DNA of 26,513 bases from a virus, in the IMG/VR virus record IMGVR_UViG_3300031857_001175, positions 1 through 26,513 of that record; one strand, 5' to 3'. Every line of letters starts with the position of its first letter. Position 1 is the stretch's first letter. The translations under genes and the position numbers were made by a program. This document shows positions 5,872-26,513 of the stretch, one piece after another. The notes beneath the pieces were generated by a model, which saw only the letters and a list, made by a program, of their open reading frames with translations, was not told the DNA's origin and did not search any database.

Positions 5872-7197
5872 ATGATATTGGATACTACAGAAGAAGTTAC
5901 GCAAACGTTACGGTACATCAAAGATCGAAAGACATTGCTGGTACCGGTATACTGTAGTCCAACGAATCACACTGCCATCAATCACTTATGTGCAATATAC
6001 ATTTATACAGAAGATGCAGTAGAACGCATGATTCCTATTCGTCATACTGAACAACTAAGGGGCTTCCCTGAACATGTAAGTTCTTTTTTGGCATTGGAGA
6101 ATATCTTTGTTCACGACAAGAAGCGATGGCTACAAACGGGAGGTAATGGGGCTGTATGGGATGTAAAAACATTGTGGTGGTATACTTACGGTGAAGCATA
6201 TGATGAATCACATTATCCAACCGCAGCTCATCAATTTTATTGGAGACGTCACGCTACATTAGATGCAGTTAATTGCATTGTTCCATTGCAACAACACATG
6301 GCAATGTGTCAAAAGATACGTCACTATGCTTGGCCAATGTGTATGAATGCGCAATTATCAGAATCATACTTACAATTCAATGCCGTATATCCAGAAGTAT
6401 TTGCTCGTATTGAATCTGCAGGCTTACAAGTAACGCCAGATTTTCGTATGCCGGAATTGATACATGATGGTCGAGTATATTCAAACTATCATTATCATAC
6501 AACGACAGGTCGACCTAGTAATGCATATCGAGGTTTCAACTTTGCTGCAATGAATAAAGATGATGGAACCAGAGCAGCATTTTGTAGTCGCTTTGAACGA
6601 GGTGCATTAGTAGAAATGGACTTTGATTCATATCACGTACGGCTTATTGCAAAAATGATTGGTTATGATTTACCCACATCATCAATACATGATTATTTAG
6701 GTCAATTTTATTTTGATGTTGCAGAATTAACTGACACGCAGCGTGAAGAAAGCAAAGCAATAACATTCCGTTTGTTGTACGGAGGTATTGATCGAGAATT
6801 CTTAAGCATACCATTTTTTGCACAAGTAAATGATTTTGTATACAAAATATGGAATAAATGGAAACGCACAGGTTGTGTTGAAACGCCTGTATTGAAACGC
6901 AATATCTGCAAGGATGGTATGCAGAATATGACTGCTAATAAATTGTTTAACTATTATTTACAAGCAGTAGAAACCGAAGTATCAGTTCTTAAATTGAAGC
7001 AAGTGCAAGATTTGATTGAACCATATGCAAGTTGCATGATACTTTATACATATGACTCCATACTTTTCGATGTAGATTATGCAGAAGCAAAGGAGTTATT
7101 ACCTCAAATCAAACAAACGTTGGAACAAGGCAACTTTCCAGTAAAAGTGAAGGTTGGCGATACATACGATGAGATACAACATATTTATATTAAATGA
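5872..7197 (+). CDS. Divergent family A DNA polymerase-like protein
   Basis: This 441-aa protein carries the palm and fingers motifs of family A polymerases in order. A TTGR-containing stretch (residues 211-214) is followed by motif A at 247-260 (VEMDFDSYHVRLIA, with D250 and R257). Motif B is at 291-304 (REESKAITFRLLYG, with R291, K295, F299 and Y303 at canonical spacing), and motif C at 392-400 (YTYDSILFD, with D395). The two metal-binding Asp are kept. The usual Glu of motif A is His255, and the HDE of motif C reads YDS. Residues about 20-110 (an IPIRHTE segment, FVHDKKRWL, WDVKTLWWY) resemble a degenerate 3'-5' exonuclease fold without its acidic residues. The C-terminus looks complete. 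No Shine-Dalgarno is evident. Its stop overlaps the HNH endonuclease start. The window also holds a family B polymerase, so this one may be a repair or accessory enzyme; activity is unproven. Confidence 0.75.
   Translation: MILDTTEEVTQTLRYIKDRKTLLVPVYCSPTNHTAINHLCAIYIYTEDAVERMIPIRHTEQLRGFPEHVSSFLALENIFVHDKKRWLQTGGNGAVWDVKTLWWYTYGEAYDESHYPTAAHQFYWRRHATLDAVNCIVPLQQHMAMCQKIRHYAWPMCMNAQLSESYLQFNAVYPEVFARIESAGLQVTPDFRMPELIHDGRVYSNYHYHTTTGRPSNAYRGFNFAAMNKDDGTRAAFCSRFERGALVEMDFDSYHVRLIAKMIGYDLPTSSIHDYLGQFYFDVAELTDTQREESKAITFRLLYGGIDREFLSIPFFAQVNDFVYKIWNKWKRTGCVETPVLKRNICKDGMQNMTANKLFNYYLQAVETEVSVLKLKQVQDLIEPYASCMILYTYDSILFDVDYAEAKELLPQIKQTLEQGNFPVKVKVGDTYDEIQHIYIK
7181..7196 (+). promoter_or_regulatory. 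ATATTTAT-type motif before the HNH gene
   Basis: ATATTTATATTAAATG ends on the HNH start codon and lies inside the last codons of the polymerase-like gene. It resembles the 17-nt element shared by the two GIY-YIG genes (17898 and 22547). Its TATTTATA core (7182-7189) is the reverse complement of the T4 late-promoter consensus TATAAATA, so direction is uncertain. AT-richness makes chance similarity possible. Confidence 0.25.
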
Positions 7198-7748
7198 ATT
7201 ATCAGTATATATATCAACAATTAATTAAATCTTCGAAAAATAAAAATCGAATAAAGAATGATACTGATTCATATTATGAAAAACATCATATTGTTCCGAA
7301 ATGCCTAGGCGGCAATGATGATAATGATAATTTAGTATTACTTACCGCAAGAGAACATTTCATAGCTCATAAATTACTTTGTGAAATTTATCCAGATAAT
7401 GATAAATTACATTATGCATTATGGAGGATGATGAATCCGCAAAGTAAACGACATAAACGAAGTTATAATATTAGTTCATATGATTATGAACGAAGAAAAA
7501 AATTACAACAAGAACAAGTTAGAAAATTAGGTTTATCTAATAAAGGTCGTAATATCAGCGAAGAACAAAAAATTAAAATAAGAGAAAAACGTAAATTACA
7601 AATAATAAGTGAAGAAACTAAAACTAAGATAAGTAATACCTTAAAAAATAAACCAAAAAATAAAATAACATGTCCACATTGTAAAAAAACCGGTGGCGAG
7701 CCTCAAATGAAACGTTTTCATTTTTCTAATTGTAAAAATATGAATTAA
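7194..7748 (+). CDS. HNH homing endonuclease with C-terminal zinc finger
   Basis: This 184-aa free-standing homing endonuclease begins on the ATGA that ends the polymerase-like gene. The HNH core is at residues about 28-60: EKHHIVPKCLGGNDD (H31, H32), N46 in DNDNLVLLTAREH, then H55 and H59. A NUMOD3-like, Lys/Arg-rich DNA-binding segment follows (about 115-160, EEQKIKIREKRK and ETKTKISNTLK). A C-terminal CxxC...HxxxC finger (CPHCKKTGGEP to HFSNCK) closes the protein. Such enzymes nick or cut a cognate site in relatives lacking the gene and spread by repair. The abutment to the polymerase gene suggests its target lies at that gene's 3' end. A matching finger occurs in the GIY-YIG enzyme at 22569. 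Being a mobile gene, it may be absent in close relatives. Confidence 0.85.
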   Translation: MNYQYIYQQLIKSSKNKNRIKNDTDSYYEKHHIVPKCLGGNDDNDNLVLLTAREHFIAHKLLCEIYPDNDKLHYALWRMMNPQSKRHKRSYNISSYDYERRKKLQQEQVRKLGLSNKGRNISEEQKIKIREKRKLQIISEETKTKISNTLKNKPKNKITCPHCKKTGGEPQMKRFHFSNCKNMN

Positions 7749-17885: not shown

Positions 17886-17935
17886 TATAACATATACATA
17901 TTTATAATAAAGGAATAAAATATGTATGTGTTATA
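17886..17935 (+). promoter_or_regulatory. Start-codon-sequestering hairpin with embedded promoter-like motif
   Basis: Bases 17886-17900 pair with 17921-17935 over 15 consecutive positions (one U-G). The loop of 20 bases (17901-17920) holds the Shine-Dalgarno AGGA, and the ATG at 17922 is in the stem. The motif ATATTTATAATAAAGG (from 17898) begins in the last bases of the 5' arm and contains TATAAT (17903-17908). RNA started just downstream would lack the 5' arm and expose the ATG; read-through RNA from nrdA would keep it closed. T4 I-TevI is controlled in this manner. Pairing is seen; function is inferred. Confidence 0.6.
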
Positions 17936-18575
17936 TGAAATCAAAAATGTTATTAACAATTGGCGATATATTGGTTGTACTAAAAATTGGACCGATCGTA
18001 AACAAGAACATATTCGAACATTAAATCAGAATACGCATTGTAATAAACATTTGCAACGAGCTTGGAATAAATACGGTTCTGATAAATTTATCTTTTCAAT
18101 TACTGAAACTGTACAATCAAAAGAAGAAATGTATAAACGCGAAATAGAATTAATTAGTGAAACTATAAATTTATATAATATTGTCAAAGGTGGAAATGGA
18201 GGTGATTTAATTACAATTCATCCAGAATATGATCGTATTATCGAAAATATGAAAGCCGCTCGTAAAAAAATGTATAAAGAAAAGCCCGAAGAAAGATTAA
18301 AACGCAATTGTTTCTTAAATCTATCAGAAGAAGAATATACAGAAAGATGTAAACTCTGGTCAGAAGTAAAAAAAGGTCCAGGCAACGGTAGATTTAAACA
18401 TGATAAAAAAATTGCACAAATTAACAAGAAAACTAATGAAGTGATTAAAATATGGGAATATTCGAGATTACTTGATTACAATGGTTTTAATTCAAAATAT
18501 GCAAGATGGGTAGCAGAAGGAAAACCTCAATTCAAAAGTCATAAAGGTTACTTATGGCAATACGTTGATATGTAG
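17922..18575 (+). CDS. GIY-YIG homing endonuclease
   Basis: This is a 217-aa free-standing homing endonuclease. The GIY-YIG domain fills residues 1-90: MYVLYEIKN (the GIY strand), YIGCTKN, then a RKQEH segment, a KHLQRAWNKYGSDKFIF helix, the catalytic Glu in KREIELISE, and YNIVKGG. A GGNGGDLITIHPE linker follows. The C-terminal ~60 residues (IAQINKKTNEVIKIWEYSRL to SHKGYLWQYVD) look like a NUMOD1/IENR1-type DNA-binding repeat module. It lies between nrdA and folE; endonucleases of this kind near nrd genes are well known in T4-like phages. Its start is enclosed in a hairpin. Unlike the enzyme at 22569 it lacks a C-terminal zinc finger. Confidence 0.88.
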   Translation: MYVLYEIKNVINNWRYIGCTKNWTDRKQEHIRTLNQNTHCNKHLQRAWNKYGSDKFIFSITETVQSKEEMYKREIELISETINLYNIVKGGNGGDLITIHPEYDRIIENMKAARKKMYKEKPEERLKRNCFLNLSEEEYTERCKLWSEVKKGPGNGRFKHDKKIAQINKKTNEVIKIWEYSRLLDYNGFNSKYARWVAEGKPQFKSHKGYLWQYVDM

Positions 18576-18587
18576 GTTGGAAATACC

Positions 18588-18607
18588 AAATAAATTTATT
18601 ATAATAT
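18588..18607 (+). promoter_or_regulatory. AATAAATTT.TTATAAT box before folE
   Basis: A 20-base element (18588-18607) matches the one before the gene at 25710 (25687-25706) in 19 of 20 positions. It contains TATAAT (18600-18605) and a perfect 12-base palindrome AATAAATTTATT (18589-18600). A start about seven bases past TATAAT would give a short leader ending in GAAAGAG before the folE ATG. Confidence 0.35.
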
Positions 18608-18625: not shown

Positions 18626-19333
18626 ATGACAGATAAGCAAAGACAAAACTTAGAACTAGTAAAACCTGGTTTCGCTAATGGTATTTCTACGCAATTAGCT
18701 AATAAACAAGCTATTGAAGGTCCTGATGCTAGATTGACTGATGATGAGAAACAGCATATTATTAAAATGGCTGCATTCTATTATGGTGAATTTCTCAAAG
18801 CATTAGGCGTAGATTGGGAAAAAGATCCTAATTCAGACAATACTCCTAAACGAGTAGCAAAGGCATATGTTAATGATTTATGGAAAGGTCGTTATGAGCC
18901 AATGTCAGATATTACTTCATTTCCAAGTGATGGTTATGACGGTATTGTATTCGAAGGCGGCATTCCATTAACTAGTATGTGTTCACATCATCATCAAACG
19001 ATTGAAGGACTAGTTCATATTGCATATATTCCAGCAGAGAACGGCAATGTAGTTGGATTAAGTAAATTAAATCGTGTTGTAGAACACTTTGGTAGACGAG
19101 GTGCAATTCAAGAACAATTAACAGTTGCAATTCAACACGCAATAGATGAACTTATTACTGACAATAAAGGTGTTGCTGTAATGATTGAAGCAACGCATAA
19201 TTGTGTATCTTGTAGAGGTGTTAAGCATCGTGGTGCATCAATGAAAACAGCAAAATTATCAGGAGCATTCTTAGAAGATGGTAATGCTCGTTCAGAATTT
19301 TATCAATTTGTGAAAGGTTACACTCATGGCTAA
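18626..19333 (+). CDS. folE: GTP cyclohydrolase I (FolE)
   Basis: This is a 235-aa protein. The zinc site is C119 with H121-H123 in TSMCSHHHQTIEG, and C193 in THNCVSCRGVKHRG. The GLSKLNRVVEHFGRRGAIQE and EQLTVAIQHAIDEL segments are the core FolE signature. The N-terminal ~40 residues are an extension; the DNTPKRVAKAYV stretch (72-83) matches the conserved entry helix. It converts GTP to dihydroneopterin triphosphate, the first step of both folate/pterin and 7-deazaguanine synthesis. queD overlaps its end by 8 bases and queE follows, pointing to the deazaguanine path. The ribosome site GAAAGAGTTACAAT is moderate. Confidence 0.93.
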   Translation: MTDKQRQNLELVKPGFANGISTQLANKQAIEGPDARLTDDEKQHIIKMAAFYYGEFLKALGVDWEKDPNSDNTPKRVAKAYVNDLWKGRYEPMSDITSFPSDGYDGIVFEGGIPLTSMCSHHHQTIEGLVHIAYIPAENGNVVGLSKLNRVVEHFGRRGAIQEQLTVAIQHAIDELITDNKGVAVMIEATHNCVSCRGVKHRGASMKTAKLSGAFLEDGNARSEFYQFVKGYTHG

Positions 19334-19787
19334 ATTTCAGTCAACAAAATTATTTGATGGTTATTCTACCTGTTTCCGCCAATGGCGAGCAGATGGTACA
19401 CATTGCAAATTCTTACATGGATATGCAGTATCATTTCGTGTATGGTTCGAAGGCGAATTAGATCATCGCAATTGGGTATTTGACTTTGGCGGTATGAAAC
19501 GAGCTACAACAAAAATTCAAGGAATGAATCCTAAAGATTACTTTGCGTGGTTATTAGATCATACTACAATTGTTGCCATGGATGATCCATATTTACCGCA
19601 ATTTAAACAAATGTATGAAGATGGTATTATTCAATTACGAATTTTAAAAGATGTTGGCTGTGAAAAGTTTGCAGAACATTTATACAACGTAATCAATGAA
19701 TTCTTAAAAGAAGAAACTGCAGGTAGAGTGAAAGCTATTAAAGTAGAAGTATACGAACACGAACGAAACTCAGCAAGTTATGAATAA
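19326..19787 (+). CDS. queD: 6-carboxytetrahydropterin synthase (QueD), variant metal site
   Basis: This is a 153-aa PTPS/QueD-family protein. The catalytic region reads STCFRQW ... HCKFLHGYAVSF: C27 and H31 match the canonical C..LHGH. The first zinc His is replaced by Cys16 (in STCF) and the last by Tyr33 (HGY). DFGGMKRA (53-60), LDHTTIVAMDDP (77-88, with H79) and VEVYEHE (140-146) fit the remaining signature. QueD converts dihydroneopterin triphosphate to 6-carboxytetrahydropterin for QueE. I believe a subfamily with the same FRQW...HGY form occurs in Alphaproteobacteria, so the change need not mean inactivity. It overlaps both folE and the next gene by 8 bases. Confidence 0.85.
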   Translation: MAKFQSTKLFDGYSTCFRQWRADGTHCKFLHGYAVSFRVWFEGELDHRNWVFDFGGMKRATTKIQGMNPKDYFAWLLDHTTIVAMDDPYLPQFKQMYEDGIIQLRILKDVGCEKFAEHLYNVINEFLKEETAGRVKAIKVEVYEHERNSASYE

Positions 19788-20163
19788 TATTAATGAAATG
19801 TATGTATCGATCTATGAATATACAGGTAGATCTGCTACACTTAACAATGTAGGTCGCGAAGTAATGGATGCTGCTTTAAAAGAAGGCATCAAAGTCGTTT
19901 GGCGAGATTTACCTCCAGATATGAAGCGCGAAAACTTCACACAGGTTGCAACATATCCTAGATCATTTCTAAATAAATTTTTTGGCAATGATGTTAAATA
20001 CACAATGATAGATCCAGTAACTTTAAACATGTTGTTTGATAAACTAACTGCATTAGAAGAAAAATTTAACGACCTAATAAAAAAATTAGATAATAAACAA
20101 GAAGAACAGTTAATAACAAAATTAGATCATGTCAATACCGATGATGATGAATTACCTTTTTGA
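19780..20163 (+). CDS. Unknown small protein with SSB-like acidic C-terminal tip
   Basis: This is a 127-aa protein lying between queD and queE and overlapping queD by 8 bases. Residues 7-70 look globular (YVSIYEYTGRSATLNN, VGREVMDAALKEGIKVVW, then YPRSFLNKFFG). Residues 80-117 form a likely coiled coil (LFDKLTALEEKFNDLIKKLDN). The protein ends in NTDDDELPF, closely matching the acidic tip (DDD(I/L)PF) by which bacterial SSB recruits repair and replication partners. No OB-fold signature is evident, so it is not called an SSB. Its position suggests translational coupling with the que genes. ATG at 19798 (MYVSIYEY) is an alternative start. Function unknown. Confidence 0.6.
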   Translation: MNNINEMYVSIYEYTGRSATLNNVGREVMDAALKEGIKVVWRDLPPDMKRENFTQVATYPRSFLNKFFGNDVKYTMIDPVTLNMLFDKLTALEEKFNDLIKKLDNKQEEQLITKLDHVNTDDDELPF

Positions 20164-20170
20164 GCCTATT

Positions 20171-20947
20171 ATGAAACCAGGAAGAATTACAGATTACGCA
20201 AAAACATTACCAATAGTAGAATTGTATCGTTGTGTACAATCTGAAGGCAGTCGATTTGGTCGCCCTACTATTGCAGTTAGAACTACAGGTTGCACTCATC
20301 GTTGCTATTTCGGCGAAGGAGGCTGGTGCGATTCTTGGTATACAAGTATCCATCCAGAAAAAGGTACTTTTTGTTTTAATGATATCATCAAGATTTATGA
20401 TGAGAATCCACATATTACAGAAATGATGTTAACTGGTGGTTCTCCGACTATGCACCCTGCATTAGTAAATGAATTAACTCATTTTGCAAATGAAAGAGAT
20501 ATCATTATCACGATTGAGACAGAAGGATCACATTTTATTGAAACTGATTATCCTATAGATCTTATTTCTCTTTCTCCTAAATTTGCAAATAGCGTTCCTG
20601 TTATAGGTGTTGCTACTCCGCAAGGTACAATTACGGATGAAAAAATGATTCGTCAACATAATAAGCATCGTCTTAATCATGAAGCTATTAAATCAATGTT
20701 ATCTTTTCATTCAGATTATCATTACAAACCAGTTTGGGATGGCACTGAAGAAAACTTAGCAGAGATTGAAGCATTTCGAATGTATCATAATATTCCAAAA
20801 TGGAAGACATTTATTATGCCTGCAGGCGATACAAGAGATGAATTAATTAAAATGTATCCAATTGTATTTGAAATGTGTGCTGAAAAGGGTTATAATATGA
20901 CTGGACGAGATCATATCATTGCATTTGATACTAAACGAGGTGTATGA
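20171..20947 (+). CDS. queE: 7-carboxy-7-deazaguanine synthase (QueE), radical SAM
   Basis: I chose ATG 20171 (MKPGRITDYA) rather than 20129, since the latter begins inside the previous gene and its extra 14 residues look like shadow sequence. The product is 258 aa. The iron-sulfur ligands are C41, C45 and C53 (TGCTHRCYFGEGGWCDSWYT): a C-x3-C-x7-C spacing, longer than the classic C-x3-C-x2-C. Insertions at this position are known in QueE. ELYRCVQSEGSRFGRP before it and MLTGGSPTMHPAL after it fit QueE. It turns 6-carboxytetrahydropterin into CDG, which QueC would convert to preQ0. folE and queD lie just upstream. QueC is not in the window. Confidence 0.88.
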   Translation: MKPGRITDYAKTLPIVELYRCVQSEGSRFGRPTIAVRTTGCTHRCYFGEGGWCDSWYTSIHPEKGTFCFNDIIKIYDENPHITEMMLTGGSPTMHPALVNELTHFANERDIIITIETEGSHFIETDYPIDLISLSPKFANSVPVIGVATPQGTITDEKMIRQHNKHRLNHEAIKSMLSFHSDYHYKPVWDGTEENLAEIEAFRMYHNIPKWKTFIMPAGDTRDELIKMYPIVFEMCAEKGYNMTGRDHIIAFDTKRGV

Positions 20948-22543: not shown

Positions 22544-22579
22544 TAGATATTTATAATAAAGGATCATTATGATTATCTA
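22544..22579 (+). promoter_or_regulatory. Start-codon hairpin with embedded promoter-like motif
   Basis: Bases 22544-22549 pair with 22574-22579 (6 bp), then one U-U mismatch, then 22551-22557 pair with 22566-22572 (7 bp, one U-G). The 8-base loop, AAAGGATC (22558-22565), holds the Shine-Dalgarno; the ATG at 22569 is in the stem. The motif ATATTTATAATAAAGGA (22547-22563) is the same 17 bases as at 17898-17914 and makes up most of the 5' arm. A transcript starting just past it would lose the arm. Confidence 0.55.
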
Positions 22580-23168
22580 TAAAACAACTAATTTAGTTAA
22601 TGGAAAATTTTATATAGGACAAGATTCTAAAAATAATCCAAATTATTTAGGCAGCGGAACTTTGCTGAATAAAGCAATTGAAAAATACGGTCGAGAACAT
22701 TTTGTTAAAGAAATTATTGAATATTGCGAATCTGAAGAACAATTAAATTCTCGAGAAATATTTTGGATATCTGAATTAAAACCATTATATAATATAGCAA
22801 AAGGAGGCTCAGGTGGCGATACTATATCAAATCATCCGGAACGAGCTTTAATTATCGAAAAACTAAAACAACGACCTATACGTTATTGGACGGAAGAGCA
22901 AAAAAATAAGCAACGTGGAGATAAAAATCCAGCAAAGCGTATTGAAGTAAGAGAAAAAATAAGTAAATCAAAAATTGGAAAATCTAGACCAGATCAATTA
23001 GGCGAATTAAATTCTGCAAAACGATTAGATGTACGAGAAAAAATTCGTTTAAAACTAAAAGGAATTCCGAAAAATCGAATACAATGTCCATTTTGCGAAA
23101 AGGATGGCCAGGCATCTAATATGTATAGATGGCACTTTAACAATTGTAAATTTAAAACAAAAGAATAA
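22569..23168 (+). CDS. GIY-YIG homing endonuclease with zinc finger
   Basis: This is a 199-aa free-standing homing endonuclease. The GIY-YIG domain spans residues 1-85: MIIYKTTN, NGKFYIGQDS, YLGSGTLLNKAIEKYG, catalytic Glu in NSREIFWISEL, YNIAKGGSGGD. A NUMOD3-like middle (KNPAKRIEVREKISKSKIG and a second copy LNSAKRLDVREKIRLKLKG) follows. A C-terminal finger (IQCPFCEKDGQ to HFNNCK) closes the protein. The finger is like that of the HNH enzyme at 7194. The gene lies between the phosphoribosyltransferase and the family B polymerase, one base before the latter's start. Target site would be expected near the polymerase gene (inference). Confidence 0.88.
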   Translation: MIIYKTTNLVNGKFYIGQDSKNNPNYLGSGTLLNKAIEKYGREHFVKEIIEYCESEEQLNSREIFWISELKPLYNIAKGGSGGDTISNHPERALIIEKLKQRPIRYWTEEQKNKQRGDKNPAKRIEVREKISKSKIGKSRPDQLGELNSAKRLDVREKIRLKLKGIPKNRIQCPFCEKDGQASNMYRWHFNNCKFKTKE

Positions 23169-25686: not shown

Positions 25687-25706
25687 AAATAAATTTCTTA
25701 TAATAT
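25687..25706 (+). promoter_or_regulatory. AATAAATTT.TTATAAT box before the gene at 25710
   Basis: AAATAAATTTCTTATAATAT matches the box before folE (18588-18607) at 19 of 20 positions. Its TATAAT (25699-25704) ends five bases before the ATG, so a promoter here would give a nearly leaderless transcript. No Shine-Dalgarno is seen for this gene. Confidence 0.35.
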
Positions 25707-25709
25707 AGT

Positions 25710-26159
25710 ATGATTGGTTATAAAAGCGTATGGTTTGGTAAAGAAGTCGAAGGTCGATTTACCGATGTAGAAACAATGTTTGTTTCTGATTTTAATGAAT
25801 TGTTACAAGGAAATGTGACAACAAAACCGGTAGCACACGTTTATATTTGTTCTCCGGCGACTAAGCAATTGGTAAACAATGAACTTAAAGATTTTGATTG
25901 GGGTAATTTGTTTAATATGATGTCAGACAAACAAATTATTTCAATTGAAGTAGAACCAGGTATGCTTGAAAAGATTCCTCCGATGATTCGTATTAGAGCT
26001 CACATATTATTAATGCTCAATGAAAAAGATGCTGGATTGTTAAAGAAAACAGATAGCATTAAAGTTGTATATAATGATTATTCATTGTATTGCACGACAG
26101 TGCATAATATGCAACAAGTATTACCAGATGATTATAAATTTGATAGATTCGAACAATGA
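25710..26159 (+). CDS. Hypothetical protein
   Basis: This is a 149-aa protein with no cysteine-rich, membrane or signal segments. It has a mixed alpha/beta pattern: VWFGKEVEGRFTDVETMFVSD, VAHVYICSPATKQLV, KQIISIEVEPGM, then a DSIKVVYNDYSLYCTTVHN segment and a charged end. Nothing recognised. It lacks a Shine-Dalgarno, and the next gene starts on its ATGA. Its start box is shared with folE, so the two genes may be co-regulated. No function proposed. Confidence 0.6.
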   Translation: MIGYKSVWFGKEVEGRFTDVETMFVSDFNELLQGNVTTKPVAHVYICSPATKQLVNNELKDFDWGNLFNMMSDKQIISIEVEPGMLEKIPPMIRIRAHILLMLNEKDAGLLKKTDSIKVVYNDYSLYCTTVHNMQQVLPDDYKFDRFEQ

Positions 26160-26509
26160 AATATAGCGTAGTAGTAACATTTAGTGTTGAAGGCTTTCAT
26201 AATTGGCCAGCAGCAAAAGACATTTTTCCTGACGTAGCATTTTTGTCAGATAGACATCGTCATATGTTTGGGTTCCGTTGTTATGCACATGTTACTCATA
26301 CAGATCGAGATGAAGAATTTATTCTTCTTAATCGCAAAATACAAAAAGCATTAAGAAACATTTTTATTAAATCAGAAACAAATGTATTTGAATTTGGTTC
26401 AATGTCTTGCGAAGCAATTGGAGAATGGTTATTAGAACAATTTCCATCTCTTTATAAAGTAGAAGTTTGGGAAGATTGGGAAAATGGTTGTGTTGTCGCG
26501 CGAGATTAG
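26156..26509 (+). CDS. PTPS/QueD-fold-like protein
   Basis: This is a 117-aa protein beginning on the previous stop (ATGA) and ending four bases before the window edge. The elements match the tetrahydropterin-synthase fold in order: F14-H15-W17 (EGFHNWPAA) for the first metal His; DRHRHMFGF (32-40, H34 and H36) where QueD has HGH. MSCEAIGEWL (83-92) lies where QueD has PTSENxA, and YKVEVWEDWENG (100-111) matches the VxVxET strand. The CE pattern also occurs in the queD at 19326 (GCEKFAEHL). The canonical C before HGH is not seen, so catalysis may differ. A second pterin/deazaguanine-related enzyme is plausible but unproven. Confidence 0.5.
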   Translation: MKYSVVVTFSVEGFHNWPAAKDIFPDVAFLSDRHRHMFGFRCYAHVTHTDRDEEFILLNRKIQKALRNIFIKSETNVFEFGSMSCEAIGEWLLEQFPSLYKVEVWEDWENGCVVARD

Positions 26510-26513
26510 GGAA

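Follow-up and report, generated by a model that had tools for sequence, protein, structure and literature searches.

The 26156-26509 gene and its surroundings

The stretch of DNA analyzed here (the window) is a viral record of 26,513 bases and, judging from longer relatives, a fragment. At its right edge, a complete open reading frame of 117 codons for amino acids runs on the plus strand from an ATG at 26156 to a TAG that closes at 26509; the record ends at 26513. From the frame itself, its family match, its relatives and a fold model, we describe it as the gene of a QueD-like, putatively QueC-replacing protein. The product matches PHROG phrog_17812 (E 1.2e-24), whose function is annotated as unknown. 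In IMG/VR, 196 relatives were confirmed and 80 kept (77-93% identity), whereas a phage collection yielded 27 matching records at 31-40% identity. The kept relatives, the low dN/dS (0.08-0.18; NG86, nine comparisons), the phage matches and the PHROG match lead us to conclude that this is a real gene under purifying selection. The phrog_17812 family is widespread in phages. Twelve of the 27 phage records were examined, one per distinct phage group; the 15 left out comprise ten PA5oct-like Pseudomonas phages, a second copy of ACP17 and four Cellulophaga records. When the phiST homolog was used to scan IMG/VR, zero relatives came back; a scan of cellular assemblies used a single peptide pattern and thus undercounts the family.

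Three other plus-strand genes of the window belong to the route to 7-carboxy-7-deazaguanine (CDG). The genes folE (GTP cyclohydrolase I, the first step; 18626-19333) and queE (CDG synthase, the source of the proposed substrate; 20129-20947) were recognized by profile matches. An earlier, sequence-only reading of this DNA held that the phage already has a queD, and it does, at 19326-19787 (Pfam PTPS, E 1.4e-13, 51.3 bits over a cut-off of 22.4; phrog_2389, E 8e-35), with the NCBIfam QueD model missed at 26.2 bits under 89.25. The encoded protein keeps the Cys and the Asp-His pair of QueD and is without two of the three canonical metal histidines, having FRQ and HGY at these sites. Many phage QueDs, some of them paired with QueC, share this loss. 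Elsewhere in the window, two GIY-YIG homing endonuclease-like proteins were noticed by eye (17922-18575 and 22569-23168); one of their genes sits between a ribonucleotide-reductase-like gene and folE.

The gene directly upstream (25710-26159, plus strand, 149 amino acids) overlaps the start of the 26156 gene by four bases and is lineage-specific. The sequence-only reading could not place it, and our searches assigned it to no family or fold: no Pfam, NCBIfam or PHROG match passed its cut-off, a profile match to a leucine-rich repeat protein among PDB sequences (E 0.044) was judged to be chance, and the fold model (pLDDT 78.7) had a best PDB structural match of E 0.14, so that no structural match was counted. 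That the two genes might be paired generally is not borne out. Homologs of the 25710 gene occur in 75 of the 80 near loci, but cellular assemblies have them in two loci out of 20, and both the 12 phages and another 35 viral loci are without any. The gene immediately before the 26156-type gene is a 25710 homolog in 27 near loci out of 80 and a cytidylyltransferase-like gene in 45, a call tested against Pfam in one locus (L074). In another (L030), the 25710 homolog lies between folE and queD, still within the pathway.

The start box that folE and the 25710 gene were said to share is indeed present: AATAAATTTnTTATAATAT occurs exactly, on the plus strand, at 18589-18607 upstream of folE and at 25688-25706 upstream of the 25710 gene. 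These two exact matches compare with none in 100 shuffles, a flattering figure given that the pattern was written from both sites; with three mismatches allowed, two were found against 1.2 expected, which is unremarkable. Among the relatives listed, the strict box is kept before the 25710 homolog in four of 20 and before folE in one of 12.

Pathway company of the family

Twenty-two whole records with the phrog_17812 family were searched for the CDG pathway: the window, nine long IMG/VR contigs and the 12 phages. FolE and QueE were each found in 21 of them and QueD in 20, the match in Aeromonas phage Ahp1 being weak. Faecalibacterium phage Roos is without all three enzymes, and no QueD was found in the whole record of Vibrio phage D479. 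Proximity gives the same picture: in 11 of the 12 phages, all but Roos, a gene annotated as GTP cyclohydrolase, QueD or QueE is no more than 6 kb away from the family gene.

In Roos (L089, 5303-7899), where searches of the record for FolE, QueD and QueE all came back empty, the family gene is found with a ParB_N-like gene, just under the cut-off, and a Vut_1 transporter gene. In another neighbor, motifs like those of DpdA are visible only by eye (hhalign 3%; phmmer finds only the protein itself). This arrangement suggests salvage, with a substrate that presumably comes in from outside and could be something other than CDG. Fused family members with N-terminal extensions were seen in Chryseobacterium phage MA9V-3 (L083, 5452-6333) and Vibrio phage Bakedbeans (L084, 5221-6372). 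The MA9V-3 extension looks HNH-like by eye, and neither extension has a Pfam match.

Family members also occur in cellular assemblies. In Streptomyces the family gene adjoins those for QueD and FolE, in identical stretches that lie on separate contigs of the same genome (L144 and L145) and are possibly terminal repeats. Four Magnetospirillum loci (L140-L142 and L146) hold a glycosyltransferase, the family gene and DpdA, with QueD in three or all four; contigs with the family reach 1.4 Mb in this genus, and the system is thus found in cellular genomes too. The first 14,669 bases of a Paenibacillus polymyxa locus (L135, 1-14669) encode FolE, QueD, QueE, the family protein, an NDK-like domain, glycosyltransferases, a carbamoyltransferase and sugar-nucleotide enzymes, and no transglycosylase was found within the 16 kb fetched. 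A cluster with FolE, QueD and QueE in which no transglycosylase was found suggests that the substrate of the family is a small molecule. The cluster possibly makes an unknown 7-deazaguanine natural product.

Transglycosylases and a glycosyltransferase beside the family

Every one of the 80 near loci has a glycosyltransferase gene downstream of the 26156-type gene, on the same strand and within 650 bases. Beyond it, again on the same strand, 74 of the 80 have a gene for DpdA (about 420 amino acids); the other six stretches end inside the glycosyltransferase gene. One of these DpdA proteins (L074) passed Pfam TGT with 30.1 bits, the cut-off being 26.3, and the same model gave two weak matches across the 22 whole records. 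These DpdA proteins are therefore far from the tRNA enzymes.

Across all 190 stretches with the family, a likely DNA-guanine transglycosylase was recognized nearby in 165, namely DpdA in 142, a phrog_20335 protein in 19 and a protein of the phage 9g kind in four. Among the remaining 25, 15 have the glycosyltransferase only; the window is one of the other ten, for it ends at the 26156 gene and so can show no transglycosylase. The glycosyltransferase accompanies the family in 153 of the 190 stretches, and never QueC or phrog_20335.

The phrog_20335 proteins (6801-7580 of locus L081, and 26 other stretches) are uncharacterized, 260-300 amino acids long, and marked by HFLG and DSSAAVW motifs. They lie beside the family in 19 loci and beside QueC in eight. 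Pfam TGT matched none of the 19 members. Their alignment with DpdA by hhalign is weak (15%, E 0.0018) and falls on the expected motifs; they align at 50% with a four-protein set of which three are 9g DpdA homologs, and their second-best PDB profile match, also weak, is the DNA-guanine transglycosylase 7ui4 (E 0.74). By these weak profile matches, phrog_20335 looks like a compact DNA-guanine transglycosylase.

The third kind is a homolog of the DpdA of phage 9g, which in 9g is annotated as queuosine tRNA-ribosyltransferase; the homolog neighbors the family gene in L168 (E 1.3e-12), L170 (2.8e-11), L174 (3e-7) and L171, a near-copy of L170. According to the available text of PMC6884629, the 7-deazaguanine pathway and DpdA of phage 9g have been tested experimentally. 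Thus, three kinds of transglycosylase accompany the family, and two of them pair elsewhere with QueC. The same insertion machinery can therefore apparently be fed either by QueC or by the phrog_17812 protein.

Predicted fold

Neither Pfam nor NCBIfam contains a match to the 26156 protein at E values up to 1, and its sequence alone finds only a chance match among PDB sequences (E 0.78). The motifs from which a tetrahydropterin synthase-like fold had been proposed are all present: FHNW (residues 14-17), HRH (34-36), CEAIGEW (85-91) and VEVWE (102-106). Fold prediction then bore the proposal out. An AlphaFold2 model built with 45 sequences from the window and the fetched loci (pLDDT 91.7, pTM 0.85) has strands at residues 5-15 and 34-44 separated by short helices, helices at 55-70 and 85-95, and strands at 99-106 and 110-115, which is the beta-beta-alpha-alpha-beta-beta domain of the T-fold, not a fold unlike it.

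Foldseek returned 27 matches to this model at E <= 0.001, all of them QueD or PTPS, with E. coli QueD at the top (E 1.1e-6). In VIA-align, E. coli QueD superposes with Z 12.8 and an rmsd of 2.3 over 107 residues; dihydroneopterin aldolase reaches Z 8.7 and a QueF-like protein Z 8.5. The first 15 structural matches (Z 9.2-12.8) comprise one uncharacterized protein and 14 that bear the name QueD or PTPS. Profile comparison agrees: hhalign joins the family to phage QueD with a probability of 92% over almost the full length, against at most 1.4% for five gene sets from the clusters (FolE, QueE, a nucleotidyltransferase, the 25710 family and phrog_20335). The 26156 protein is thus confidently modeled as a T-fold and, on this model, is a distant relative of QueD.

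Residues kept and lost

In QueD, three histidines are metal ligands and a glutamate of the C-terminal strands recognizes the ring. The family keeps the counterparts of all four. His15 (26198-26200), the first putative ligand, is invariant in both alignments (27 of 27 and 45 of 45 rows), as are, in the larger one, His34 and His36 of the HxH motif (His34-Arg-His36; 26255-26263), the putative second and third ligands; by sequence, the three-histidine site of QueD and PTPS is therefore in place. Glu106 (26471-26473), in the last-but-one strand, aligns with the ring-recognition glutamate of PTPS and QueD; it is invariant in the 27-row alignment and near-invariant in the 45-row one. Also invariant in all 45 rows are A20, L30, H48, R51, E54, F55, S84 and E86.

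The catalytic elements are another matter. Where QueD has its catalytic Cys, four residues ahead of HxH, stands the invariant Leu30 (26243-26245), which the HMMER alignment places opposite the Cys of 4ntm. The Asp-His pair falls, in alignment with the solved QueD, inside an insertion that has no counterpart in the family profile. A motif not seen in QueD, HxxR[DE]xEF, is present instead, running in the window from H48 through R51, D and E54 to F55 (26297-26320). The S84-C85-E86 segment (26405-26413) has invariant Ser and Glu, whereas several relatives have Val or Met in place of Cys85. The family accordingly has no invariant Cys, and with it no candidate for the thioimide Cys of QueF and QueF-like enzymes. 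The sequence-only reading supposed that a phage with its own queD would not need a second copy, and the 26156 gene is not one: with both catalytic elements missing and a separate QueD in the same phage, we reject a second QueD or PTPS. The alignments suggest a family that retained the metal site and the pocket, lost the lyase residues and gained a new motif.

Near-exclusion of QueC

QueC is rarely found where the family is. It exceeded its cut-off in one of the 22 whole records, that of Vibrio phage D479, where a gene annotated as QueC-like lies beside one for nicotinamide phosphoribosyltransferase and in a different stretch (L150) from the family gene (L082). A match below the cut-off in Xanthomonas phage X1 proved to be an annotated NAD(+) synthase. 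The relation was also seen from the side of QueD, in 105 IMG/VR loci collected via the QueD of phage 9g (25) or of ACP17 (80 kept of 301). Within the stretches fetched, 42 have the family only, 29 QueC only, none both and 34 neither. When the window and all 256 fetched loci are counted by stretch, the family is in 190, QueC in 31 and the two together in none. Of 23 whole records, 12 were QueC-positive over the cut-off, and none of these 12 carries phrog_17812. Three QueC-negative records that are empty near queD (G022, G024 and G026) carry the family elsewhere, and four others, all short or partial (G018, G021, G023 and G025), have neither.

The Fisher p-value for this exclusion is 1.4e-8, ignoring kinship. 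We do not lean on it, because a QueE tree built on 54 representatives, out of 135 eligible, needs just three changes: the family and QueC states change at least three times, two of these being forced by starred branches, against a mean of 10.3 when the states are shuffled. The swap between the family and QueC has thus been repeated, but few times, amounting to some three changes and not to 71 independent cases.

Discussion

We think it somewhat probable that the 26156 protein works as a T-fold enzyme that binds a metal and replaces QueC, most likely by decarboxylating CDG. QueE makes CDG, and QueC converts it to preQ0, as stated in the available portion of PMC13329287. A protein that stands in for QueC and supplies DpdA would most simply have CDG as its substrate too. 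Decarboxylation would be the simplest reaction for a one-domain metal protein that has no cofactor domain; we choose it on grounds of chemical economy, as our best guess. In the mechanism that we propose, the phage makes CDG with its own FolE, QueD and QueE. The 26156 protein would bind it in the former pterin pocket, with Glu106 on the guanine-like edge and a metal held by His15, His34 and His36. H48, R51 and E54, standing in place of the Cys and Asp-His of QueD, would then bring about removal of the carboxyl group, most likely yielding 7-deazaguanine. DpdA, encoded just downstream in the relatives of the window, would exchange this base for guanine in the phage DNA, and the glycosyltransferase encoded between the two would probably add a sugar in this lineage. 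The sequence-only reading had considered that the protein might act on another pterin. A 7-deazaguanine base is the likelier ligand, given that the family sits at the place of QueC, after QueE has made CDG. Some observations speak against our proposal: the family and a QueC-like gene together in D479, Roos with none of FolE, QueD and QueE, the 25 stretches in which no transglycosylase was recognized, and the small number of changes behind the exclusion of QueC.

The glycosyltransferase in all 80 near loci is awkward for a plain 7-deazaguanine product. Plain 7-deazaguanine has no obvious hydroxyl to glycosylate; therefore, either the sugar is attached to a carbon or nitrogen atom, or what the 26156 protein makes is not the plain base. 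It is conceivable, though we would not call it probable, that the T-fold enzyme, the glycosyltransferase and the DpdA of the relatives' operon together make a glycosylated 7-deazaguanine in DNA, by a chemistry shared with clusters such as that of Paenibacillus. The proposed route would have CDG decarboxylated or otherwise remodeled, sugar-coated and placed by transglycosylation. A related but unlikely alternative is that the protein acts on CDG without decarboxylating it and makes another 7-substituted base, bearing for example an oxygen or an activated carboxyl, as the attachment point for the sugar. The glycosyltransferase, which lies on the same strand downstream throughout the near loci and in 153 of the 190 stretches overall but never with QueC, speaks for this, as do the glycosyltransferases of the Paenibacillus cluster. 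However, the family also occurs without that enzyme, beside phrog_20335 in 19 loci, and we infer that a one-domain T-fold protein without a cofactor domain would have little means of reducing or activating a carboxylate.

A binding role, which the sequence-only reading had also entertained, is still a candidate, albeit an improbable one. As a non-enzymatic CDG carrier or specificity subunit, the protein would let DpdA insert CDG itself. The loss of the QueD catalytic residues would suit such a role, and with QueC absent CDG would be the end product. Yet pure binding needs no metal site, whereas the three metal histidines and H48, R51 and E54 are invariant in all 45 rows; this fully kept site and the new invariant polar motif favor an enzyme. 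Three unlike transglycosylases as partners would also be odd for a dedicated subunit.

We give very little credence to the notion that a CPH4 synthase has been split between the 26156 protein, as the missing half, and the phage QueD, the two forming a mixed hexamer. The complementary residue losses of the two proteins, in the window and in many relatives, raise it, but each occurs without such a partner: HGY-type QueD is found with QueC and without the family in 13 loci (the whole, fragmentary record having been checked for L183 and L186), and the family is found with a QueD that has the canonical HGH in L131, L135, L140, L144, L168, L170, L171 and, by eye, L174. The mixed hexamer, tested in this way, is unsupported. 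Equally doubtful is a role in folate or biopterin metabolism as another pterin enzyme, of PTPS, QueD or aldolase-like type, for although the T-fold matches PTPS/QueD and dihydroneopterin aldolase structures and folE is nearby, the company is queE and DNA transglycosylases, QueC is excluded, the PTPS/QueD catalytic residues are lost and Pfam PTPS does not match.

If the decarboxylation that we favor is correct, the phrog_17812 family is a branch point that sets the base in phage DNA, with QueC leading to preQ0-type bases and the family to 7-deazaguanine-type bases. This would help to explain phages that have folE, queD and queE but no QueC. Further, the neighboring glycosyltransferase would give a testable hint that DNA contains a guanine bearing a sugar, and the family would illustrate that a pterin enzyme can shed its catalytic residues and retain its metal site to carry out a new reaction. 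Our literature search, which covered few subscription papers, returned no phrase for a CDG or deazaguanine decarboxylase or for a glycosylated 7-deazaguanine, and no paper joining 7-deazaguanine, DpdL and phage; the part of the MIJ3 paper that was available has nothing on phage DNA modification.

Comparison with known systems

QueD of E. coli (PDB 4ntk, 4ntm and 3qn9) is like the 26156 protein in its one-domain T-fold, near-equal length, three-histidine site and C-terminal strand-pair Glu, and the two are homologous by profile. They differ in that the family has Leu at the Cys position, no Asp-His loop and the HxxR[DE]xEF motif, and in that the phage has a separate QueD.

In proposed role, the nearest counterpart is DpdL. 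Cui et al. (2023) are said to have predicted it to be a CDG decarboxylase in phages with 2'-deoxy-7-deazaguanine (dDG) in their DNA. The likeness is one of description. The phrog_17812 family may be DpdL, in which case the window gene would be a further member.

QueF and QueF-like enzymes act on 7-deazaguanines after the pterin stage. They too have the T-fold (PDB 5jyx and 5k0p), and it is a QueF-like protein that superposes on our model with the Z score given above. Unlike the phrog_17812 family, they form a covalent thioimide (according to the title of entry 5jyx) and hence have an active-site Cys.

QueC (preQ0 synthase, PF06508) stands at the same point of the pathway as the 26156 protein, between QueE and DpdA, and presumably shares its substrate, CDG. 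It is, by contrast, a Rossmann-type protein with its own Zn motif, as described in the accessible text of PMC13329287, and the two almost never co-occur.

Finally, TubF, the UbiD-family protein of tubercidin biosynthesis, resembles our proposal in its chemistry, for it has been proposed to remove the 7-carboxyl group from a CDG derivative (available text of PMC6112128). It belongs to another protein family and, in the same part of that source, is proposed to act after ribosylation and with a prenyl-FMN cofactor. Because of this protein, decarboxylation of the kind that we suggest for CDG has a proposed natural precedent (PMC6112128, same portion).
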